DNA from: Candidatus Bipolaricaulis sibiricus
Lineage (GTDB): Bacteria > Bipolaricaulota > Bipolaricaulia > Bipolaricaulales > Bipolaricaulaceae
Assembly (NCBI GenBank): GCA_004102645.1
Contig: CP034928.1
Coordinates: 1,116,001 to 1,180,000 of the forward strand
Direction of reading: 5' to 3'
Length of the DNA stretch: 64,000 nt
Under the pieces are notes generated by a model, which saw only the letters and a program-made list of their open reading frames with translations, made no database searches and was not told where the DNA came from. This document shows, piece by piece, positions 45,705 through 58,633 of this stretch. Position numbers and translations under genes: made by a program. How positions within the stretch are numbered: position 1 is the first letter of the stretch; the number at the start of each line of letters is the position of its first letter.

Positions 45705-47861
45705 GTGGCCGGGCTTCTGCGATTTCTCGTCGTTGTACTCTGTCTGTTCTCCGCCGCCGCTGTGGCTGCGCCAGAGAAACTCGACCCATTTCTGCGTCTG
45801 CTGCTCGCGGCGCACGACGGGGAAGGCCCCGTCTCCCTTTTCACCCCGGAGGCCCTGCCGAATCTGATCGCGTTGGGGGAAGCTCCTCACGCTCCGCTCG
45901 ACGCGTGGCGGGCAGGCGTTCCCATCCAGGTATTCGTCCTGACGGCAGACCCCGGCGCCGCACGGGCACTTCCCCTGTTCCGGCCCCACCAGGTACTGGG
46001 CCGGCTCGCAACTGGTGAAGTGGCTCTCGCAGATCTCACGGCGCTCGCTGCCGACCCGCAGGTAGTGTACGTCGAGGCCAGTCGACCGGTGTACCCGACG
46101 CTCGATCGCTCCGTGCCCGAGACGGGGGCGCCCGCTCTGTGGTACGCAACACCCGGTGCGACCGGTCGGGGGGTGCTCGTCGGCATCGTGGACTCGGGCA
46201 TCGACATTCTCCACCGCGACTTCCGTGTGGACCGAGACGGCGATGGGATCGAAGAGGGGACGCGGATCTTCTACCTGTGGGATCAGACAGGGGTCGGAGC
46301 CACGGGGTTCCCGTACTGGTGGGGGGACGTGCTCGCCGAGACCTACTATGGACGAGCATTCTCCCGCGATGAACTCGAGCGGGCGATCGCTAGCGGGTTC
46401 GCCCCCACCCTCGACACCCACGGCCACGGCACCCACGTCGCTGGCATCGCGGCGGGCGATGGCTCGGCTTCGCCCTTAGGGCTGCGAGGAGTTGCACCCG
46501 AGGCTGAGCTCGTGGTGGTGAAGACCACGTTCTATCAGAACACGGTGGTGGATGGGGTGAGGTTTGTGTTCGAAGCCGCGCAGGCCCGTGGAATGCCCGC
46601 CGTGGTGAACCTGTCGCTCGGCAGCCACAGCGGCCCGCACGACGGCACCTCGTTGTTCGAGCAGATGCTCGACGCCATGCTCGATCGGCCTGGCAGGGCA
46701 ATCGTAGTTGCCGCTGGGAACGAAGGGGACCGACGGATCCACGTTGCCGGAGACGTGCGAGCTCCCACCACGTGGCACCTCGAAGTAGAGAAGAGCACTG
46801 TGTCTGTTCAGCTTTGGCACATGGGAACAGCTAGCTTCTCCCTGGAAGTCCGGACCCCAGGCGGTGAGTCCGTGAGCGTCCTTCCGTCGAGCCAGCGTTG
46901 GACATCCACCGCCTCCGGCGGAGTGTGGCTCGACAACACGTCCCTCCCCGACCCTCGCAACTTGGGCCGCTACATCTACATCGCTCTGAGTGAGGTCACT
47001 CCGGGGACAACGTGGGCCCTCACGCTCACCCCGGTCATCGGCGGGGGCCGCGTGGACGGGTGGGTGGAGAACCCCTCGGCGGGTCAGTTCAGAGAAGGCG
47101 ACTCGGACTACACGATCAGCGAGCCGGGGAACGCCCAACGCGTGATCACGGTCGGTGCCTACGTCACGAAGAACCGCTGGACCGCGGTCACGGGGGAGCA
47201 GACGGGGGATGGAATCGTAGGAGCGCTCGCGTCGTTCTCCTCGCGCGGGCCAACGCGAGACGGTCGTCTCAAACCCGATCTTGCGGCACCAGGAGCGTGG
47301 ATCGCGTCGGCCCGCTCTGTCAGCGCTTCACCTGGGGGGTGGCTCACCCTCCCCGGGGGTGAGTACTCGATGCTGCTTGGGACGAGCATGGCCGCGCCCC
47401 ACGTGGCGGGAGCCGTGGCCCTGCTGTTCTCTCGTCGGCCCAACCTCACCTGGTCCGAGGTCAAGGATGCCCTTGTTGCTGGAGCAAGGGCTGACTCCCA
47501 CGTTGGGATGGCACCAAACCGCTCCTGGGGCGCAGGGAAGCTCGATATCGCCCGCAGCGCGGCAGCCATCGGGGGCACTGCGCCAGCGGGAAGACCCTCC
47601 CTCCAGATCACAGCCAACCCCGTGTCCCGTGAGGCGGTGTTCGCTTACCGATGCCCTCCGGAGACCCTGTGGGCAAGCCTCCACGTCTACGACCTTGCCG
47701 GACGATTGCTCTTCACCCAGCTGCTGGCCCTCCCCTCGGGCGAGGCGCGGTGGCCTCTGTCCACCGCCTCGGGGGAGCGAGTTGCGAGCGGGCTCTACCT
47801 CGCCGTGGTCGTAACAGATCGAGCGCGTTCTGAGACTGTCCGGGTGGTGGTCCAGCGATGA
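45705..47861 (+). CDS. Secreted subtilisin-like serine protease (S8) with sorting-type C-terminal domain
   Basis: 718 aa. There is a signal peptide (FLVVVLCLFSAAAVA), then a propeptide-like region. The S8 domain has the triad Asp163 in VDSGID, His241 in HGHGTHVAG and Ser561 in GTSMAAPHVAG, plus the oxyanion Asn in AAGNEGD. A beta insert of about 170 residues sits before the Ser motif. The last 80-90 residues (SLQITANPVSREAVF, LHVYDLAGRLL, GERVASGLYLAVV) resemble the FlgD-like or type IX sorting C-terminal domain. GTG start with no ribosome site. It overlaps the PorV-like gene by 4 nt. Confidence 0.93.
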   Translation: MAGLLRFLVVVLCLFSAAAVAAPEKLDPFLRLLLAAHDGEGPVSLFTPEALPNLIALGEAPHAPLDAWRAGVPIQVFVLTADPGAARALPLFRPHQVLGRLATGEVALADLTALAADPQVVYVEASRPVYPTLDRSVPETGAPALWYATPGATGRGVLVGIVDSGIDILHRDFRVDRDGDGIEEGTRIFYLWDQTGVGATGFPYWWGDVLAETYYGRAFSRDELERAIASGFAPTLDTHGHGTHVAGIAAGDGSASPLGLRGVAPEAELVVVKTTFYQNTVVDGVRFVFEAAQARGMPAVVNLSLGSHSGPHDGTSLFEQMLDAMLDRPGRAIVVAAGNEGDRRIHVAGDVRAPTTWHLEVEKSTVSVQLWHMGTASFSLEVRTPGGESVSVLPSSQRWTSTASGGVWLDNTSLPDPRNLGRYIYIALSEVTPGTTWALTLTPVIGGGRVDGWVENPSAGQFREGDSDYTISEPGNAQRVITVGAYVTKNRWTAVTGEQTGDGIVGALASFSSRGPTRDGRLKPDLAAPGAWIASARSVSASPGGWLTLPGGEYSMLLGTSMAAPHVAGAVALLFSRRPNLTWSEVKDALVAGARADSHVGMAPNRSWGAGKLDIARSAAAIGGTAPAGRPSLQITANPVSREAVFAYRCPPETLWASLHVYDLAGRLLFTQLLALPSGEARWPLSTASGERVASGLYLAVVVTDRARSETVRVVVQR

Positions 47862-48664
47862 AGACCTGCGCGACAGCACTCTGCATCCTCGCGGCAGCCC
47901 TGACCAGCGCCGCTGCGGGGTTCATCGGCGGGGACATCCTGTTCGACCTCGGGGCAGGAGCGCGCAGCGCCGGAATGGGGGGAGCCGGGATCGCTCTCCC
48001 CGCGAGCGACGCCTTGTTCGTCAACCCGGCGGGTCTCCCGTGGGTCGAGGGCATCCAGGTTGTCTCCACCTATGGGAACGTGTTCGACGTCGCCGACTTC
48101 GGCGCGCTGTCCGTTGGGATGCCGGGGCTTGCGGCGGCCGGGCTCGTGCTAGACGCAGGGACGATTGGGCCTGCCCTCGCCTATCGAACCACCGGTGCCG
48201 TGGTGGGAGCCGGCGTGCGCCTGGGACCGCTGGGGGCTGGCGTGCGGGCACGCCTGGTGCGCCCAGTGGCTCCTGTTCCCGGCGCGGGCGGAGCCCTCGA
48301 CTTCGCCCTCCTCTGGCGCGGCCCCGTGCAGGTGGGAGCGGTGTGGCGTGCTATCCTTTCCCAAGCCCCTGTTGCAGCTGAGTCCTGGCCTGCCGAACTT
48401 GAAGTTGGCCTCGCGCTGCCGGTTCGGGGTTTCGGCCTTAGCGCGTCGCTCGCCCTCGATGTGACCGGCGTGGGTACCGACCCCTCATTCGCCCTTGGCG
48501 GCGAGGTGGGTGCCGATTGGCTCTTCATCCGTGCCGGGTACGGCCCCGCCGGTGTCGCCATCGGCGGCACGGTGCGGTGGAGGCCGTTCGCCCTTGACTG
48601 GGCGGTTCTCCTGCACCCGGTTCTACCGGCCACGTATCGCGTATCCTTTGCAGTGAGACTATGA
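47858..48664 (+). CDS. PorV/PorQ-like outer-membrane beta-barrel protein
   Basis: 268 aa. A signal peptide (ILAAALTSAAA) is followed by FDLGAGARSAGMGGAGIALPASDALFVNPAGL, split here as the family opening, which is the start of PorV/UPF0164 barrels. Alternating beta strands run to a final aromatic and hydrophobic C-terminus (TYRVSFAVRL). In type IX secretion PorV shuttles cargo from the translocon; in other phyla its role is open. ATG overlaps both neighbours by 4 nt, so protease, barrel and the 1288-aa protein are one translational unit. Confidence 0.8.
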   Translation: MKTCATALCILAAALTSAAAGFIGGDILFDLGAGARSAGMGGAGIALPASDALFVNPAGLPWVEGIQVVSTYGNVFDVADFGALSVGMPGLAAAGLVLDAGTIGPALAYRTTGAVVGAGVRLGPLGAGVRARLVRPVAPVPGAGGALDFALLWRGPVQVGAVWRAILSQAPVAAESWPAELEVGLALPVRGFGLSASLALDVTGVGTDPSFALGGEVGADWLFIRAGYGPAGVAIGGTVRWRPFALDWAVLLHPVLPATYRVSFAVRL

Positions 48665-51600
48665 TGAGAAGATACCTACTCGTTCTCCTCGTCGGCGGCG
48701 GCATCGCGTTGGCCCAGCAGACCCCCAGCTTCAACCTAACAGTGAGTGGGGAGAAGACGTGGACCATCTGGCTCGGGTTGGGGTCGGCGAGCCTGCTTGC
48801 GGACCAGGACCTGACCCCGGGCCAACCCGCCCTCACCCAGACCCTGCGCGCGATGATCGAGGGCAAGGCCCTCGGGTTCATCACCCTCCGGGCGAGCTTC
48901 AACGATCAGCTCGACGTCGGGTTCCAGGACTTCTTGCTCACCGTGGATCGCACTCCGTGGACGGGAGAACTCGGCCGGTTCGTCGTCGGGGCGGAGGGAG
49001 AGGGCCTCGGGGTGTACAACAAGCGCGTCCTAGGCGCCCGGGTCGGCTACGCCAGCGATGGTGTGGCGCTGAACGCCGTCGTGACGCGGCTCGAGGGCAT
49101 CTCCGAGTCGCGCACGTTCCGCGGGGAGGAAGGCCGCGGGGAGGCCCTATTCACGGTCAACGATCCCGACGAGCCGTGGCGCGAGGCGGCCTACCTCCGC
49201 TCCGTGGAGGGCCTCGCCTACTGGCCGCTCCGGATTCAGTTCGTGGAAGGACTGACGAACGTCCAGCTTCGCCTGAGCGGAACCTCCGCCCTGTGGACGT
49301 TCCTCGCCGAGTGGGGCCTCGACTTCATCCGGGACGACCTGGCCGCCGAGCTGGTGACCCCGCTGACAGCGGCAGAGTACGTCGTGCTGCGCAACGAGCG
49401 CGACGATCTTGCCCTGCGCGTCGCGCCGTCCACCCTGGCGCGGCGGCGAGTCCAGCAGGCGATCGACGCCTACAACGCACGTCTTGGGCTTACGGGCAAA
49501 GATCGCAAGACCTACCCGTTCGTCGAAGCTAGCGAGCTCGAAAACCGCTTCCTGGCGGGGTTCACCGGGTTTCTCGCCGTCCTCGTCGACGACGACGCCC
49601 ACCCGTTCTCCGACCTCGCGCGCCGCCGCTACCTGTTCCTCGGCGAGCGCGACGTGATCGAGGGGTCGGTCGAGGTGTGGATCCGCCGGCCGGGAGAGAC
49701 CGACTACCGTCCGTCGACGGATCCCGAGCTTGGAGAGTACACCTGGACGCTGCTGCCTGCCGACGGGACACTGCGCATTTCGTTCCCCTCAGCGTTCTTC
49801 ACAGGGGGCGCAGTGCGCGTCGCCTTTGCCTACCGTCGGGAGGGGACGGCTTTCTCCCTGGGCCCCTCGCTTGTCCCAGGCTCAGAGCGGGTGACGCTCA
49901 ACGGGCGCCGGCTCGCCCGGGGCACCGACTACAGCCTGGACTACGCGTCTGGCGTCCTGCTCCTGTTCACCCCCCTCGGGCCCGACGACGAGCTACGGGT
50001 CGACTTCGAACGCCAGCGCGGCGGGCTGGGCGCCGTCACCGACTACGAGCGGAACCTGTTCGGGCTTACCCTCAGCGTGCCCGGCTGGGACGGGTTCAAG
50101 CTCGCCCTGTACCGGGCGATGGACTCCGGCTCGCCCCGACCCACCACGCACACGATGCCCAACACCCACAGCGTGGCCGCCGTGTCCGCGTCGGGCAAGG
50201 TCGCGGGGTGGACCTACAGCCTGAGCCTCGCTGGATCGGAGAACATCTTTCCCTTCGACGACAACGCCCGCGTACCCTCTGCGAATCGAGTTCGCGCAAT
50301 CGTCAGTGCTCAGGCTCCTGATGGGGAGTACGTGATCCTCGGGCACCACAACGGTCTCACCGTGTACAAGGACGGGACGTTCGCCGCCTACGGGCCCGCC
50401 CACGGCCTGGGGGGTCGGTCGGTTCATGCCCTGCTCGCTCTCCCCGGGCAACTGCTCGTCGGCACAGATGCGGGGCTGACCGTGGTCCGCCTGGCCGAGG
50501 CGACGCCGTTCGATCGCGTGAGGAGTTGGGTCAGGGTCACCGGGACAGACCAACTCCCGGGAACCGAAGTTCTGGCCCTGACCCGCGCCGACGGCCGGGT
50601 GTACCTCGCCACTGACACCGCCCTCGTCTCGTTCCGGGCCGCCGATAGCGAGGACCCCAGCAAGTGGGATCGAGCGGACCTGCCCACCAACGGCGGCCGA
50701 CCGACAGCCCTGCTGGGGACGGACGGGCGGCTGTACCTCGGCACGACCAGCGGGCTCTACCTGCGCACCGACGGGGAGTGGATGCTCGTCGTCGACGCCG
50801 CGGGGATGATCCACGACCTCCTCGCCCGCGGCCAGGACGTGTACGTGGCGTCCGAGCACGGCATTCGGATCCTCCGCGGCGCGAGCGGTGTGGGGTGGGC
50901 AGCGTTCGGGACGGCCGTGTACGGTCTGGCGCTGCGGGACGGCATCCTGTGGTACGCGGCCGAGGACGGCCTGTGGCAAGAGAACCAGATCGGCCCTGTC
51001 GTCAGCGGGCCCGTGACCGCGGTCGGGGCCGGGCAAGGGGCGGTGTGGGCGGCCGCCAAGGCCAGCGCGGACTTCCGGCTCGACCTGTGGCGGGTGATCG
51101 ACAGCGCGGAGAGGCTCCCCCCGACCCGGACCAAGCTCGACGGCCGCGACCTCGGGCGGTTCCAGGACATCCCAGCGGCAGACCACACCCGGTACGGGAC
51201 CTCGGCCAGCCTCGCCCTGACCCAGACCTTCGGCGACTGGCAGTGGGAGCTGCGCGCGGCGAGCCGGCTGCCGGGGTACGAGGAGATCGGGCGCCCTGGG
51301 CGCTCCGACAGCCACGGGCTGAGCCTTGCCGCCCGCTACACCGGCGGCGGCCCGACGAGCGTCGACGTCCGGGCGAGGTGGGATCTGACCAACCTCGCGA
51401 CCAAGCCCCGCGGCCGACTCGCCGGCAGCGTGGACTGGCGCTGGTCCGACGGCCCCACCGCCACTGTGTCCATCACCCCGACCCTCACCGGTGACGGGCT
51501 GGTGTCGTTCCACCAGCTGGAGCTGGGGTGGCAGGCCGGTCTGTCGAACAAGACCCAGGCGTGGTCGTGGGGGGTGACCACCAGCGGTACGTTCCGCTCC

Positions 51601-52527
51601 CCCGCCCTCGTCGCCTCCGGTCAGCTCGGGGCGACCTTGTCCATCGTTCCGGTGCCGGGGTGGACGATGGACCTGAGCTGGACCCGGCCGTTCCGTACAA
51701 CGGGCGCCCCGGGCAGCGAGACGTTCCGCGCCGTCCTACGGTGGGCTGCCGAGACCGACCGCGCGTCGCTCAATGCAAGCTGGCAGGAGGACTGGCGACA
51801 CCATCTCACCGCCGGCACGTGGCGGGACGAGCGCACCCTCCAGGGCGATGCGCGATGGAAGGCATGGTCGATCCCCGATGGCGGCACTCTCACAACGCGC
51901 CTGTCGACGTCAGTCCGACTCAGTCCCACTGAGCAGCGCTGGACCTCCCGTGTGGAGGCCGACATCGCTCGTTCGCCGAACGTGATCCGGCTTCGGGTCA
52001 CCCTCGGGCAGGGTCTTCTGCCGCTCACCGAGCGGTCCGATCGAACCCTCGGTCTCTCTGTGTATTGGGAGACCACGGCCTGGGAGGGGGTGCGGGCCTC
52101 CCTGCAATGGGACAGGTCGTGGCTCACCCTCTCCCATCCTCGCTACCCAACGCAGACCACGGACAAGGAAGAGGTTACAGCCCGCGCAACGTGGGAACCG
52201 AAGGGTGCCACCTGGCGAGACGCCCTCACCCTGACCTGGAAACCCCGTGCCAAGGAGGCAGCCCTCTCCAATCGGCTGACATGGGCCCTCGGAGCAGCCT
52301 CCCTGTCGGTAGACACGTCCGCCACCCTCAAGGGTGAGGCGCTTGATGTGAAGACCACGGCCCAGCTCGGTCTACCTCTGGACACCATCCTCACCGCCCT
52401 CGGAGCGAGGCCGATCGGCGACACATGGGGGATCAGCGCCGAGATGGGTCACATCGTGTCCCTCAAGGGGAGAGCCGAGCCCAGACATGCCCTGTTCATG
52501 GGCGTGACTCTCGCTGTCCGGTTCTGA
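48661..52527 (+). CDS. Giant outer-membrane-type protein with beta-propeller insert
   Basis: 1288 aa. A signal peptide (RRYLLVLLVGGGIALAQ) is followed by a long beta-strand region. Residues about 405-440 read GSERVTLNGRRLARGTDYSLDY, a motif type I recall from SprA/Sov-like surface proteins. Residues about 540-820 are a propeller of repeated VGTDAGLTVVR, LATDTALVSF, LGTTSGLYLR and VASEHGIRIL units. The last 450 residues are amphipathic strands rich in Trp, ending VTLAVRF with a C-terminal Phe, as in outer-membrane barrels. It is co-translated with the PorV-like protein. A translocon, adhesin or sensor role is inference; sequence similarity to SprA is limited. Confidence 0.72.
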   Translation: MMRRYLLVLLVGGGIALAQQTPSFNLTVSGEKTWTIWLGLGSASLLADQDLTPGQPALTQTLRAMIEGKALGFITLRASFNDQLDVGFQDFLLTVDRTPWTGELGRFVVGAEGEGLGVYNKRVLGARVGYASDGVALNAVVTRLEGISESRTFRGEEGRGEALFTVNDPDEPWREAAYLRSVEGLAYWPLRIQFVEGLTNVQLRLSGTSALWTFLAEWGLDFIRDDLAAELVTPLTAAEYVVLRNERDDLALRVAPSTLARRRVQQAIDAYNARLGLTGKDRKTYPFVEASELENRFLAGFTGFLAVLVDDDAHPFSDLARRRYLFLGERDVIEGSVEVWIRRPGETDYRPSTDPELGEYTWTLLPADGTLRISFPSAFFTGGAVRVAFAYRREGTAFSLGPSLVPGSERVTLNGRRLARGTDYSLDYASGVLLLFTPLGPDDELRVDFERQRGGLGAVTDYERNLFGLTLSVPGWDGFKLALYRAMDSGSPRPTTHTMPNTHSVAAVSASGKVAGWTYSLSLAGSENIFPFDDNARVPSANRVRAIVSAQAPDGEYVILGHHNGLTVYKDGTFAAYGPAHGLGGRSVHALLALPGQLLVGTDAGLTVVRLAEATPFDRVRSWVRVTGTDQLPGTEVLALTRADGRVYLATDTALVSFRAADSEDPSKWDRADLPTNGGRPTALLGTDGRLYLGTTSGLYLRTDGEWMLVVDAAGMIHDLLARGQDVYVASEHGIRILRGASGVGWAAFGTAVYGLALRDGILWYAAEDGLWQENQIGPVVSGPVTAVGAGQGAVWAAAKASADFRLDLWRVIDSAERLPPTRTKLDGRDLGRFQDIPAADHTRYGTSASLALTQTFGDWQWELRAASRLPGYEEIGRPGRSDSHGLSLAARYTGGGPTSVDVRARWDLTNLATKPRGRLAGSVDWRWSDGPTATVSITPTLTGDGLVSFHQLELGWQAGLSNKTQAWSWGVTTSGTFRSPALVASGQLGATLSIVPVPGWTMDLSWTRPFRTTGAPGSETFRAVLRWAAETDRASLNASWQEDWRHHLTAGTWRDERTLQGDARWKAWSIPDGGTLTTRLSTSVRLSPTEQRWTSRVEADIARSPNVIRLRVTLGQGLLPLTERSDRTLGLSVYWETTAWEGVRASLQWDRSWLTLSHPRYPTQTTDKEEVTARATWEPKGATWRDALTLTWKPRAKEAALSNRLTWALGAASLSVDTSATLKGEALDVKTTAQLGLPLDTILTALGARPIGDTWGISAEMGHIVSLKGRAEPRHALFMGVTLAVRF

Positions 52528-52553
52528 GAGGGAGACGTCTCAGAACAACACGC

Positions 52554-52580
52554 GGGGCTGACCTGCCGACGGTCAGCCCC
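52554..52580. terminator. Bidirectional terminator between two surface operons
   Basis: GGGGCTGACC (52554-52563) pairs perfectly with GGTCAGCCCC (52571-52580) around a 7-nt loop, in the 61-nt space between convergent genes. A GAGACGTCTC palindrome lies just before it. Confidence 0.7.
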
Positions 52581-52588
52581 GTGCGTCT

Positions 52589-53437
52589 CTAGAACCGAGC
52601 GCCGAACCCGAACCGGTGCGAGGCTGACAGGACCGGATGCGTGAGCAGCGCGTAGTCGAGCACGAACATTCCCCATCGCGCCCCAAGACCGAGCGCCCAC
52701 TGCAGGCCCGCCTGGAAGCGCAGACCAGCGCGAATCTCGAACGCCCCGAACGCAGACCATCCGACCCCGATTGCCGTGTACTCCGCGGTGAGGTCCATCG
52801 CGAGGGTCAACCCAAGGGGATTCACCAGCGCCACACCCGCCGCGAGATCCGTTGTCCAACCATCGCTCGTCTCCCCAACCGTGGGTCCGAACCCAAACTC
52901 TCGCAGTGCCAGGCCTACTCGGAGCGGCCCCACCGGGGTGCCCAACCGCCCGAGGAGCCCCACGTCGAGCGCAAACCCGCTCCCCGACGCGTCAGCGATG
53001 CGCACGTTGTGGTACTTGATCGCCACCCCACCCGCTGCCGGGAAGGGAAACACGCGTAGCATCGTCAGATCGAACGCGGCACCCAGCACAGCCGCCAGGT
53101 GCGAGAAGGCGAGCGGATCGCCCTCTGGATCCGTGATCCCGCCGACCCCGAGGTACCCCACCCCCGCACCGAAGTTCGGGACCGCACCCCCGATCCACGT
53201 CACCGAGTACAGCCCGAGCACGCTCGACAGGCTCGAGTCGGCGCGCGTCCCGGTTGACCACGCCAGCCCGGCCGGGTTGGTGAGGAGGGCCTCCGTGCCC
53301 TCGGCGATGGCGATGTACGCCCCGCCGAACCCCATCGCCCGAACCCCCAGACCCACGTCGAACGGGTTCGGCAAGCCCTGGCCCAGGGCCAGCGTCCCGG
53401 CCAAGACCACGCCCAACAGCGTGAACGCTCGTCGCAT
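52589..53437 (-). CDS. PorV/PorQ-like outer-membrane protein, second copy
   Basis: 282 aa. A signal peptide (FTLLGVVLAGTLALG) is followed by FDVGLGVRAMGFGGAYIAIAEG and LLTNPAGLAW, the same opening as the copy at 47858. The barrel ends in HRFGFGARF, again with a terminal Phe. Similarity of layout and ending to the first copy suggests an old duplication within this cluster. Two adjacent ATGs exist; I chose 53437, with GAGGAGG 5 nt before it. It lies 10 nt behind the PKD protein and shares its operon. Confidence 0.8.
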   Translation of the reverse strand: MRRAFTLLGVVLAGTLALGQGLPNPFDVGLGVRAMGFGGAYIAIAEGTEALLTNPAGLAWSTGTRADSSLSSVLGLYSVTWIGGAVPNFGAGVGYLGVGGITDPEGDPLAFSHLAAVLGAAFDLTMLRVFPFPAAGGVAIKYHNVRIADASGSGFALDVGLLGRLGTPVGPLRVGLALREFGFGPTVGETSDGWTTDLAAGVALVNPLGLTLAMDLTAEYTAIGVGWSAFGAFEIRAGLRFQAGLQWALGLGARWGMFVLDYALLTHPVLSASHRFGFGARF

Positions 53438-53447
53438 CATCCCCTCC

Positions 53448-56400
53448 TCAGCGCACCACAAGGATCTTCCCGACTTCTGAAGAGATGGTCCCACCGTCCA
53501 CGCGGGCTGTGACAAGGAAGAAGTACAGCCCGTCGGCGATCGCGCGACCATTCCCATCCCTGAGATCCCACGTGAACTGCGTGCCCGTCACATCGCTCCG
53601 CCGCACCTCGCGGCCCAGCATATCGAAGATCTGGATCTGGGCCTGAGCTGCGCCGGCGGGCAGGACGAGCTGAATCCGGCACTGGGTCCGCGCAGGGTTG
53701 TCCAGCAGCCGGGTACCAATGCCGCCGCCAACCGGCAACACCGTGACGTCTCGGGCGAACCACTCTCCCCACCCCCCGGCGTCGCGGGCCCGTGCCTGAA
53801 CCCGGAACACACCGCTCGCGGCGAAGGTATGGGTCTTGACGTTCGTCTCGCTCGGCACAACCGTGTCATCGCCCAACTTCCACTCATAGCCCGTGATGGG
53901 GTCTCCGTCCGGATCGGCGGCCGTGGCCGTGAACGTGATCGCCTGCCCCACCTGAGGATCGGCGGGGTTCGGCGTGATCGCGCTCACCACCGGCCGTCGG
54001 TTCACAGGAGTGGCGGTCACCGTGACCACCTTCTCCTTCGTGCCGACCTCACCCCGGCTGTTCGTGACCGAAAGGACCACGGTGTACGTGCCCGCCGCAG
54101 CGTAGGTGTGCGTCGGATTCTGCACCGTCGACGTCCCGCCGTCCCCAAACGCCCACGCGTACGTGTACGGGGTGAGGGGCGGCGTGGCGGGGTCCGTCAC
54201 CTTCGAGGTGAACGCAACCTCTTGCCCCACAGCAGGACTGTCCGGCGTCAAGGTGAAGTCCACCACCGGTTGTTTGCCGATCACGTCCACCTGGCGCGTC
54301 TTCGCGGTGGACAGGCCCCCTTCCCCCGTGACCGTCAGGGTGACCTGGAACGTGCCGCCAAGCGCGAACTTGTGGGTGACGGGGGCCGAGCCCTTGGTCT
54401 GGGCCGTCTTCCCGTCGCCGAAGTTCCAGCGGAAGGTGGCGTTGGCGATGTTCCCCGACGGGTCGGCGATCCCCGCCGCCGGGGTGAAGGTGACATCCAC
54501 CCCTGCCTCCGGCGCAGTGGGCGCCCAACTGAAGTCCACCCCGGTCGGGCGCTGGCCGATCGCCGTGGTGAACACGGCGGGCCCCAGCAAGGCGGTCTTG
54601 TGGTGCGTCTGCAGGCCCTCCGAGTGCCACACCACAGTCTCCAGCTGAAGCTTGCGGCCGGCAGGAGCGGTGTCTTTGAGGGTCACCCAGATCTCGATCT
54701 CGACCACGGTGTCGTCGGGCACGATGTTGTTGGCGGTCGTTGGCACGCGAACCCCAGCAAGGCTCAAGCCCACCACAGGATCCGGCGCCTCGCCGAGCAG
54801 CGCCCCATCCGATCGCCGTCGGACCTCGATCCGCGCCACGTGCTGATCGGCAAGTGGATCCGTCGCCACATTGCGGATCATGAGCGAGTTGATGATCACA
54901 TCGTACGGATCGTCATCGCTGTCCCTGAGCTCCAGGCGTTGAGCGAGGAACCGCACTCCCTGGAACACGGTCCGATCGGCGAGCGTCAGCGCCGTCTCCC
55001 CTTCGAAGCCCTGGCCGCTGGCGGGTCCGGTGATGAACTCCGGGCCCTCCAGGGGGGTATCGGGAGCCTGAGGCTTGCCAAAGATCTTCGAGTCCTCCGT
55101 GTGCCAAACCACGGTCTGCAGCTGCACCTTCCGATCGAGGGGCACGGCCGGACCGAGTGTCACCCACAGCTCGATGACCTCACGCGTGTCGTCGGCGACG
55201 ACGTTGTTCGAGCTGGTGCCAATACGCACTCCCCCCGAGCGAAGCCCCGATGCGCTCGTTACCGATCCCATCAGCGCGCCGTCGCGGGCGCGGATGACCT
55301 CGATGCGAGCGATGTGGTCGTCCGAAAGAGGTGCGTCCGGAGCGATGTTCCACACCACAAGCGAGTTGATCGTCACGTCGTACGGATCGAGGTCGTCGTC
55401 GCCAACCTCGATGCGCTGAGCCAGGAACCGTTGGTTGGAGAAGACTCGGCCGCCGGCGAGATCGTGGTTCTCCACCGTCTCGAATCCCGTCGGCTCCTTC
55501 ACGGTGAACGTAGGAGCTTCGTCATCCGCCGGGATGTCCCTTCCTCCGCACCGGACATCGGCCGCAAGCTGCAGCTTGTGGCCCATCGGGGCGGTCAGCT
55601 TCAGCGTGACCCAGATCTCGAGGTGCAGCGCGCTGTAGGGGCCGGCCTTGGCGTTCGACGTGGTGATGGTCACGCCCGTCGTGGTGAGTGCCGCAACCTG
55701 GCTCGTCGAGCCGAGTTGAGCGTCGTCGCTTGCCCGGCGAACCTCGATCTTGTCCACGTACGCGCCCGTCAGCTTGGTACCGCCCACCGCCACGTTCTTG
55801 AGCACAACCTGGGAGATCGTGGTCTCGAACGGGAGATCGGTCGCGTCCACCAGGATGCGCCCGGCAAGGAACCGTTGCCCGCGGTACACGTCGGCACCGG
55901 GAACGGCGCCATCGAACTTGACCACCGGGAGCCGCACCGTGAAGGTCGCCGCAGGACCTCCTCCCGGAGGAGCGTAGTTGATCGCCGCACCCGGGGGCGT
56001 GATGGTTGTTCCGCCCAACCTGAGCTTCAGGCCCACCGGAACACCGGCCTTCAGCTTGACGAAGATGTACAACCGATGGGTGCCGGCGGTGAACGTGTTG
56101 TTCGCCAATCCTGTGATCGCGATCCCCGCCAGAAGATCGTCTCCTACACCGATGGTGTGCTTTTTCAGGACTGGTCCTGTTTCTGTGTTTCTTCGGACTT
56201 CAATGTACTCCACATCGGCACTCTTCACGCGGTTGTCGGGGTCGGGCGGCGTTGGGAGTGGAAGGTCGTTTTTCACGCTCAGAGCGGTAATTGTGACCGT
56301 GTTCCCCGTGCCAACTGTGAACTGGACCACCTGGGCCAGGACCACGGCGCCCGGGGCCACGTTCTCATCGGGCAACCCGATGTTGTTGAACGTCTGGGCT

Positions 56401-56456
56401 ACCACCGCCGGCGCCGCGAGGGCGACCGCCACCGCAAGCAACATGCACCATTTCAT
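53448..56456 (-). CDS. Secreted PKD-repeat surface protein with sorting-type C-terminal domain
   Basis: 1002 aa. A signal peptide (MLLAVAVALAAPAVVA) is followed by an N-terminal unit (about 20-180). Three tandem repeats of about 150 residues each carry RGQRFLAGRI / SNQRFLAQRI / QGVRFLAQRL, near 190, 342 and 500. Three PKD domains (FRWNFGDGKTA, YAWAFGDGGTS, YEWKLGDDTV) fill about 650-910. The C-terminus has IQIFDMLGREVRR, WDLRDGNGRAIADGLYFF and GKILVVR, a typical FlgD-like or type IX sorting domain. GAGGAGG precedes the ATG. It may be an S-layer or adhesion protein exported with help of the PorV-like partner. Confidence 0.85.
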   Translation of the reverse strand: MKWCMLLAVAVALAAPAVVAQTFNNIGLPDENVAPGAVVLAQVVQFTVGTGNTVTITALSVKNDLPLPTPPDPDNRVKSADVEYIEVRRNTETGPVLKKHTIGVGDDLLAGIAITGLANNTFTAGTHRLYIFVKLKAGVPVGLKLRLGGTTITPPGAAINYAPPGGGPAATFTVRLPVVKFDGAVPGADVYRGQRFLAGRILVDATDLPFETTISQVVLKNVAVGGTKLTGAYVDKIEVRRASDDAQLGSTSQVAALTTTGVTITTSNAKAGPYSALHLEIWVTLKLTAPMGHKLQLAADVRCGGRDIPADDEAPTFTVKEPTGFETVENHDLAGGRVFSNQRFLAQRIEVGDDDLDPYDVTINSLVVWNIAPDAPLSDDHIARIEVIRARDGALMGSVTSASGLRSGGVRIGTSSNNVVADDTREVIELWVTLGPAVPLDRKVQLQTVVWHTEDSKIFGKPQAPDTPLEGPEFITGPASGQGFEGETALTLADRTVFQGVRFLAQRLELRDSDDDPYDVIINSLMIRNVATDPLADQHVARIEVRRRSDGALLGEAPDPVVGLSLAGVRVPTTANNIVPDDTVVEIEIWVTLKDTAPAGRKLQLETVVWHSEGLQTHHKTALLGPAVFTTAIGQRPTGVDFSWAPTAPEAGVDVTFTPAAGIADPSGNIANATFRWNFGDGKTAQTKGSAPVTHKFALGGTFQVTLTVTGEGGLSTAKTRQVDVIGKQPVVDFTLTPDSPAVGQEVAFTSKVTDPATPPLTPYTYAWAFGDGGTSTVQNPTHTYAAAGTYTVVLSVTNSRGEVGTKEKVVTVTATPVNRRPVVSAITPNPADPQVGQAITFTATAADPDGDPITGYEWKLGDDTVVPSETNVKTHTFAASGVFRVQARARDAGGWGEWFARDVTVLPVGGGIGTRLLDNPARTQCRIQLVLPAGAAQAQIQIFDMLGREVRRSDVTGTQFTWDLRDGNGRAIADGLYFFLVTARVDGGTISSEVGKILVVR

Positions 56457-57179: not shown

Positions 57180-57680
57180 CTAGAACTCCAACGTCTCGAA
57201 CTCGACCGGGAGCTCGGTGCGTGTCACCCTCACGATGTGGAACGGATGGGTCAGCGCTTGGGACACGACATCGTCCGCGCCAGGCTGGCTCAGCCCCGCG
57301 CGCACGACCATGCGATCGCTGCGAAGGAGAATCCGGGTGATCTCCACCGCGTAGCCCCCCGTCGGCTTCTCCCCGAGGAACACCGCGGCGACGATCTCCT
57401 CCGTGAAGTCCACCCCGGGCACCGGTGGCCGGGGATCGGCACCCGTGGTGTGCTGGTACCACAGCGCGGCCCACGTCTCCGCATCGCGCACCACGACCTG
57501 GCGGGGGTCGCGGATCCCGCTGCTCGTGCCCTGATCGACCGTCTCGAAGCTCAGCTCGACGCGCACCGCCGCTCCCCCGCCCGGGCACGTCGGGCAGCCG
57601 GGATCAGTGCGGGGAAGGCACCCCGCGAGAAGGCTGACAGGTCCGAGAAACAAGACTGCGACGCCGGTCTTCGCTCGCAC
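57180..57680 (-). CDS. PrcB-like lipoprotein
   Basis: 166 aa. The signal peptide ends in a good lipobox (LLAGC, Cys about 20). The mature part has CPTCPGGG, VVVRDAETWAALWYQHT and VAAVFLGEKPTGGYAVEI, the core of PrcB_C domains, known from a Treponema protease complex. It probably sits on the periplasmic face of a membrane; no PrcA/PrtP partner is adjacent. The start is GTG 57680, with GGAGG 8 nt before it. TATACT on the minus strand (57714-57709) may be its -10. Confidence 0.78.
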   Translation of the reverse strand: MRAKTGVAVLFLGPVSLLAGCLPRTDPGCPTCPGGGAAVRVELSFETVDQGTSSGIRDPRQVVVRDAETWAALWYQHTTGADPRPPVPGVDFTEEIVAAVFLGEKPTGGYAVEITRILLRSDRMVVRAGLSQPGADDVVSQALTHPFHIVRVTRTELPVEFETLEF

Positions 57681-57729
57681 GGACACCACCTCCTGGGTCT
57701 CACGACTCAGTATACCGAACGGAAGCGAA

Positions 57730-57751
57730 GGGCGGCCCCGAAGGGCCGCCC
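57730..57751 (-). terminator. UUCG-loop terminator after 57773-58633 gene
   Basis: On the minus strand GGGCGGCCC pairs with GGGCCGCCC around a TTCG tetraloop (9-bp stem 57730-57738 with 57743-57751), followed by TTCGCTTCC. It lies 22 nt behind the stop. Confidence 0.7.
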
Positions 57752-57772
57752 GCCTTGTGTCCGACCCGGTTC

Positions 57773-58633
57773 CTACTGGGAGAGAGTCAGCACGTACGGC
57801 ATCGCCGGCCCGAGGTCCCACTTGATCACGAGGACGAAGAACAGCGTCCCCGGCACCGGCGCGTTCCCCCACTGGGTGAACGGCTGGTAGATCGCGGCCC
57901 GGTCGAGGGACACGGACAGGGCCCCCGTGAGGGGCGACCACGCGGTGGCCGTGTTCCAGAAGTTGGGGACCGGAACCACCCACAGCCAGATGAACGCGCC
58001 CGGCCGATCGTGGGTCACCGCGACCCGCAACGACCCGGTCGTGCTCACCCACAATGCCCGCACCGCAAACCCTGTCGGGAAGGCACCGATCAGGATCGGG
58101 TCATCGGCGTCGCTCAGCTTCGGCTGGCTCTCCGAACCCTGTACCTCGACCTGGGCCCCCGCCGCTTGGAGGGCCGCGATGAGCTGGCTTGGGCTCATCC
58201 CCGGCGTGAGGGGCGGCCGCGGCATCCCCGCGGGGAGCTCGGGTTGGGCGCCGGTCGGGGTCTCGGTGGGCGGTTGCTGGCCTGGCACGGTGAGGGTGAG
58301 CGTCCCGCAGGCGAACCTCACGGTCTGGCCCGCCGGAACGGTCACCTCGAACGCCTGGCCCTGGGCTGTGCCGCGCACCACCACCGCCGTCGGGGCGGCC
58401 GACAGCTGGGCCTCCGAGGTGTACGTCTGTCCCAACCGGACCAGCACCTGCAAGATCTGCAGCCCAATGACCTGGTCGCCCCGCACCCACACGATCTGGG
58501 ACAGCTGGACTCCCGCCGAACACGTATCGTTCCGAATCGCAACCGACGCCTGAACCGGGGCGGTCTGAGAGAGGGCCGGAACGAGGAACGCCGCCAACAC
58601 CACAACGAGCACACCTGCACGCAACGTCCGCAT
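57773..58633 (-). CDS. Secreted protein of unknown function
   Basis: 286 aa. There is a signal peptide (VLVVVLAAFLVPALS), then a beta-rich domain, a Pro-rich linker near residues 120-145, and a C-terminal beta domain with a GAFIWLWVVPVPNFWN segment. Two Cys are in the N-terminal domain. No family recognised. TATGGAGG lies before ATG 58633. It has the best promoter of this region (TTGACA-16-TATGAT) overlapped by a palindromic operator, so it should be tightly controlled, and it ends at a strong terminator: a single-gene regulated unit. Confidence 0.72.
   Translation of the reverse strand: MRTLRAGVLVVVLAAFLVPALSQTAPVQASVAIRNDTCSAGVQLSQIVWVRGDQVIGLQILQVLVRLGQTYTSEAQLSAAPTAVVVRGTAQGQAFEVTVPAGQTVRFACGTLTLTVPGQQPPTETPTGAQPELPAGMPRPPLTPGMSPSQLIAALQAAGAQVEVQGSESQPKLSDADDPILIGAFPTGFAVRALWVSTTGSLRVAVTHDRPGAFIWLWVVPVPNFWNTATAWSPLTGALSVSLDRAAIYQPFTQWGNAPVPGTLFFVLVIKWDLGPAMPYVLTLSQ

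Follow-up and report, generated by a model that had tools for sequence, protein, structure and literature searches.

A SprA-like channel and PorV-like barrels encoded with C-terminal-domain proteins in Candidatus Bipolaricaulota suggest the core of a type-IX-like export route

The window analysed here, a stretch of 64,000 nucleotides (positions 1116001-1180000) of a closed 1.70-Mb Candidatus Bipolaricaulota genome, contains five genes in two facing operons whose products probably form the core, in the outer membrane, of an export route resembling type IX secretion. In type IX secretion, PorV binds the SprA translocon and carries cargo with a C-terminal domain (CTD). The plus operon comprises, in this order, a subtilase, a PorV-like barrel (PV1) and a SprA-like outer-membrane channel (BAR), and the coordinates of the open reading frames bear out the two 4-nt overlaps between these genes that were noticed in a first-pass annotation of the sequence. 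The minus operon consists of a PKD-repeat surface protein followed by a second PorV-like barrel (PV2), whose start, set at the signal peptide MMRRAFTLL, lies 7 nt past the stop of the PKD protein. All five proteins start with a Sec-type signal peptide, as judged by inspection. The first-pass annotation also described the operons as facing each other across a shared terminator; the facing arrangement and a hairpin of 13 bp (dG -33.3, z -3.7) are indeed present, but a terminator-like T-rich tail is flagged for the minus direction only. The features are listed in Table 1.

Table 1. Genes and features of the proposed export cluster (window coordinates)
Feature	Position	Strand	Basis
Subtilase with C-terminal type-IX-like CTD	45705..47861	+	Peptidase_S8 PF00082, E 1e-44
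Subtilase CTD	47583..47858	+	CTD family alignment and profile; best PDB match PorU CTD 6za2
PV1, PorV-like barrel, 268 aa, proposed shuttle	47858..48664	+	PorV_fam, E 4e-6
BAR, SprA-like outer-membrane channel, 1288 aa	48661..52527	+	Profile match to SprA, AF2, Foldseek
BAR residues ~37-153, aligned with SprA 148-269	48769..49119	+	Profile against PDB
BAR residues ~404-496 with GSERVTLNGRRL..DY motif, aligned with SprA 695-785	49870..50148	+	Profile against PDB; TIGR04189
Beta-propeller inserted in BAR, residues ~540-815	50278..51105	+	Profile match and model
Hairpin, possible shared terminator	52551..52583	no strand	Structure and energy computation
PV2, PorV-like barrel, 283 aa, proposed shuttle/anchor of PKD protein	52589..53440	-	PorV_fam, E 5e-11
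PKD-repeat surface protein, 1002 aa, C-terminal CTD	53448..56456	-	PKD, E 2e-40
PKD protein CTD	53451..53726	-	CTD alignment and profile

Since the curated models of Pfam and NCBIfam matched SprA and PorV only weakly, family profiles were built. Membership of BAR in a Pfam family was rejected, as a Pfam scan gave no match. A profile of the N-terminal half of the BAR family, compared with all PDB sequences, finds SprA of F. johnsoniae as its sole match (E 5.5e-11), in two collinear stretches that cover SprA residues 148-269 and 695-785. The SprA-like GSERVTLNGRRL..DY motif, on which the first-pass annotation had based its comparison with SprA, is located at BAR residues 407-424, and the SprA model TIGR04189 aligns with residues 404-452 only (E 5e-5, 20.5 bits). 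For structure prediction, which that annotation had named as a check, BAR was modelled with AlphaFold (AF2) as two overlapping models of residues 22-1221 and 89-1288, both with a mean predicted local distance difference test (pLDDT) score of 87 and a predicted TM-score (pTM) of 0.68. In Foldseek searches of the PDB the predicted fold is most like that of SprA, whose structures occupy ranks 1-3 for both models (E 5.7e-18 and 1.8e-15), ahead of propellers and of LptD (E 3e-7 and 1e-9). An LptD-type or simple-porin channel was rejected for BAR, LptD being a far weaker structural match than SprA.

Counted by eye from the predicted secondary structure, BAR has approximately 36 long strands: about 7 precede a plug-like domain, 4 follow it and 25 lie past the propeller. 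The SprA barrel has 36 strands (PMC10994853). The earlier description of BAR as a short channel therefore holds for its length of 1288 residues, but probably not for the barrel itself; the shortness probably lies mainly in the loops, the cap and the N-terminal extension. In the alignment, profile position 37 of BAR corresponds to SprA residue 148, and the N-terminal extension of SprA is some 100 residues longer than the part of BAR that precedes the aligned region. BAR thus appears, from its sequence, to be devoid of most of the long extension which docks SkpA/SprE in SprA. The beta-propeller within BAR had been overlooked in the first reading. The middle part of the full BAR profile matches the two-component-regulator propeller 4a2l (E 8e-26) and, more weakly, that of PorZ (5m11, E 1e-3), and a VIA search with model residues 520-795 yields propellers with Z-scores of 24-26, which fill the list so that it says nothing on the barrel. 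The propeller was rejected as proof of PorZ ancestry, because two-component-regulator propellers score far better. BAR relatives were not found in the plasmid collection. A channel 76% identical to BAR is encoded by an entry titled Thermotoga sp. (L083, DYGJ01000047.1), apparently a mislabelled Bipolaricaulis bin.

The claim that each operon encodes a PorV/PorQ-like barrel finds support in the PorV-like family profile, which matches in the PDB only PorV of the SprA-PorV complex (6h3i_F, E 4e-9). PV2 matches this profile with E 4e-84, and both PV1 and PV2 are recognised by PorV_fam, under its curated cut-off. The contigs of the genome contain exactly three PorV-like genes, PV1, PV2 and a third at 1499788-1500621, all of which adjoin a gene ending in a CTD.

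The FlgD-like or sorting-type C-terminal domains that had been proposed for the subtilase and the PKD protein are both recognised by the CTD family profile (E 3.7e-32 and 5.7e-27, respectively). Por_Secre_tail matches both proteins weakly, and FlgD_ig is found at the C-terminus of the PKD protein with 35 bits (cut-off 27). The best PDB match of the profile is the CTD of PorU (6za2, E 1.3e-11), followed by FlgD and the CTD of PorZ (E 1e-5) and then by a CTD of type IX cargo (8glj_D, E 0.002). A reading of these CTDs as generic surface domains of the FlgD/Ig type and of the PorV-like proteins as generic porins of the FadL type, their pairing reflecting operons for surface proteins rather than dedicated export, is very unlikely: FlgD is among the matches of the profile and a FlgD-like domain is internal in another protein, but the profile matches the PorU CTD far better than it does FlgD, the PorV-like profile matches PorV alone, the CTDs form the extreme C-terminus, with an end that is mostly basic in the alignment, and most PorV-like genes are paired with a CTD gene, as described below. 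In the subtilase family, the catalytic triad Asp163/His241/Ser561 is conserved in all 31 aligned proteins, the one in the window included.

A genome search for further proteins with the same CTD, suggested in the first-pass annotation, brought to light, away from the cluster, one further CTD/PorV pair and one further CTD protein, both missed in the first reading. Four proteins of the genome end in a CTD. Two are the subtilase and the PKD protein of the cluster; the third, of 981 aa (L042:6697-9642), is encoded directly upstream of the remaining PorV-like gene, and the fourth, of 856 aa, has no PorV-like gene in its vicinity. The latter contains DUF7507, DUF11 and CARDB domains and directly follows a 554-aa protein; these two together (G000:C1:423366-427610; L115:6367-10611) resemble the 981-aa protein; the 856-aa plus 554-aa proteins and the 981-aa protein are candidate surface-layer components. 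FlgD-like-domain proteins at 1558123 and 874948 were rejected as cargo, since the domain is not C-terminal. A subtilase of 1705 aa (L043:3931-9048), which also has CARDB and PKD regions, likewise carries its FlgD-like domain internally.

The arrangement is conserved throughout the phylum. The BAR family is present in 89 of the 100 genomes searched, and in 37 of the 38 of these 100 that are at least 90% complete; the order subtilase-PV1-BAR recurs in most families sampled, with PV1 directly upstream of BAR in 31 of 36 loci. Chance or an annotation artefact was rejected on the ground of this phylum-wide recurrence. In a set of 40 genomes, each 90% complete or better, all have PorV-like genes and 39 have CTDs. 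Co-occurrence of the two in related genomes, also named beforehand as a check, is extensive: in these 40 genomes 110 of 120 PorV-like genes lie directly downstream of a CTD gene, counted over scored matches from which fragments without an N-terminus and weak matches were left out. For 87 of them a CTD ends at most 400 nt upstream on the same strand, among the matches listed, and inspection of the flanks of the other 33 places a CTD within ~200 nt upstream in 23 more, a number that allows up to 18 residues from the profile end to the stop (17 with a stricter 15-residue rule). Seven of the unpaired PorV-like genes (L151-L157), from several families, belong to a divergent class with no adjoining CTD gene.

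These data also bear on the idea that the PorV-like barrels merely anchor the CTD proteins, which would reach the surface by another route, while BAR is a separate transporter, for example of lipids, glycans or nutrients. CTD-PorV pairs away from the BAR gene exist, LptD is among the structural neighbours of BAR, and the propeller is without a counterpart in SprA. However, SprA surpasses LptD by many orders of magnitude with both models and is the only match in sequence, and most loci keep the BAR gene in one operon with the genes of a PorV-like barrel and a CTD protein. A separate transporter is therefore an improbable explanation.

Other components of type IX systems were looked for in the phylum. 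GldM is found in none of the 100 genomes, but the control set is silent too; GldK, GldL, GldN, PorP, PorE, SprE and SkpA were not searched. The MotA/ExbB/TolQ family, which need not include GldL, is absent from all ten genomes inspected, namely the genome of the window and nine others, some with 36-87 CTD matches, and here the control is positive. Peptidase_C25, the family of gingipains and PorU-type sortases, is found neither in the genome of the window nor in 96 of the 100 genomes; it is present in the remaining four (G072, with four matches, G023, G089 and G070). A full type IX system with a PorKLMN motor and ring too divergent for the models used is unlikely. The silent GldM control and the unsearched components leave room for it, as do the many CTD proteins of some relatives, but the MotA/ExbB/TolQ and C25 results, the former with the limit concerning GldL, and the apparent loss from BAR of most of the SkpA/SprE-binding extension of SprA argue against it.

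Of the features expected of a type IX system, the SprA/Sov-type translocon is represented by BAR through remote homology, the PorV-type shuttle by the sole PDB match of the PorV-like profile, and the cargo by proteins that combine a Sec signal with a conserved sorting domain at the C-terminus. The cluster is not classed as a bona fide type IX secretion system, because the search for a C25 sortase came back empty and that for GldM gave nothing in the genomes or in its control set; very probably, the same core is at work. The suggestion of the first-pass annotation that cargo, shuttle and channel may form a reduced or divergent export system still appears the best reading of the sequences and models; neither a fold unlike SprA nor a lack of co-occurrence of CTD and PorV-like genes, which that annotation had named as grounds for refutation, was observed. 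It is probable that the cluster constitutes the outer-membrane core of a type-IX-like route in which cargos and shuttles come in dedicated pairs and no known motor takes part.

According to this model, the four CTD proteins would cross the inner membrane via Sec and enter BAR, where the CTD would be captured by a PorV-like barrel docked at the channel. The cargo would then leave BAR together with this barrel and stay displayed at the surface. As the putative shuttle is mostly encoded directly behind its cargo, at distances from a 4-nt overlap to ~200 nt, the pair is probably made together and may be specific. The shuttle may also serve as an anchor that is used only once, which would agree with the failure to detect a motor, a C25 sortase or a lipopolysaccharide (LPS) anchor, and the subtilase may act in the place of PorU as a possible surface processing protease. 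Cargo loading onto SprA-PorV is energy-independent, and the N-terminal extension of SprA binds SkpA/SprE (PMC10994853); type B CTD proteins remain bound to their co-encoded PorP-like barrels (PMC9143113; PMC12618676). A more far-reaching proposal is that of a minimal type-IX-type translocon that works without a motor and belongs to the core of a candidate phylum outside the Fibrobacterota-Chlorobiota-Bacteroidota (FCB) group, with co-encoded one-use shuttle-anchors, a propeller channel and cargo binding or folding in place of proton drive; it is tentative and perhaps somewhat doubtful.

Several observations weigh against a type-IX-like core. BAR does not reach a full-length SprA/Sov equivalog match (20.5 bits, against a TIGR04189 cut-off of 200), nor do the two PorV-like barrels reach the NF033709 (PorV/PorQ) cut-off of 90 bits (26.5 and 42.7). 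The TM-scores of BAR with SprA, normalised by query, are moderate (0.39-0.44), and the CTD profile resembles FlgD too. In F. johnsoniae the release of cargo from SprA needs the motor (PMC10994853), so that a system lacking one must work differently or rely on a motor that has escaped recognition. CTD matches can also far outnumber PorV-like genes (87 versus 4 in G047, 41 versus 5 in G057). G047, G057 and G060, which lie outside the family of the window, have 87, 41 and 36 CTD matches with 3-5 PorV-like genes each, and shuttles there must be shared; the one-cargo-one-shuttle rule is not universal.

According to a 2024 paper, type IX genes do not occur beyond the FCB phyla (PMC11285876), and in an earlier survey they turned up in Bacteroidetes only (PMC4793230); a limited literature search yielded no paper on type IX components in Bipolaricaulota. 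We read the cluster as a new variant of the type IX translocon core outside the FCB phyla, conserved across a group where type IX was thought absent. Type IX systems also anchor type A cargo covalently to A-LPS; for the relative Ran1, LPS genes were reported missing and the presence of an outer membrane was left undecided in 2018 (PMC6092417). The conserved SprA-type barrel and shuttle barrels are strong genomic evidence for an outer membrane in Bipolaricaulota, and suggest how these bacteria decorate it. If the motor is truly missing, the cluster offers a natural test of the part of the motor in SprA export, an open mechanistic question, and a motorless translocon could be an ancestral or simplified form that helps to understand the motorised system of Bacteroidota.

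Two genes at 57183-58633, on the minus strand like the PKD operon and upstream of it, encode a protein with a PrcB_C domain and a secreted protein of 286 aa; the latter has no Pfam match.

The closest known counterpart is the SprA/Sov-PorV system of F. johnsoniae and P. gingivalis, with which the cluster shares a homologous giant barrel, with ~36 long strands here versus 36, a PorV-homologous shuttle and type-A-like CTDs, shuttle and channel here sharing one operon. In contrast, BAR has 1288 residues versus 2403 in SprA, lacks most of the SkpA/SprE-binding extension and contains a propeller which is absent from SprA; no GldM (with its silent control), MotA/ExbB-type motor or C25 sortase was found, and a relative reportedly lacks LPS genes (PMC6092417). 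PorZ, a surface protein with a propeller and a CTD, supplies PDB matches to both the BAR and the CTD families, but in the cluster the propeller is built into BAR and other propellers score better, so specific descent is not claimed. As in type B CTD proteins with PorP/SprF-like shuttles (PMC12618676, PMC9143113), each cargo is genetically linked to a carrier barrel of its own, on which it may stay anchored. The difference lies in the barrels, here PorV-like, and in the CTDs, here nearest to those of PorU/PorZ and to type A CTDs. The PorU-PorV pair likewise has a CTD-bearing protease encoded beside a PorV-type barrel, porU adjoining porV in P. gingivalis, and the PorU CTD is the closest match of the CTD profile; here a subtilase (S8), in a putative equivalent role, replaces the C25 cysteine protease.

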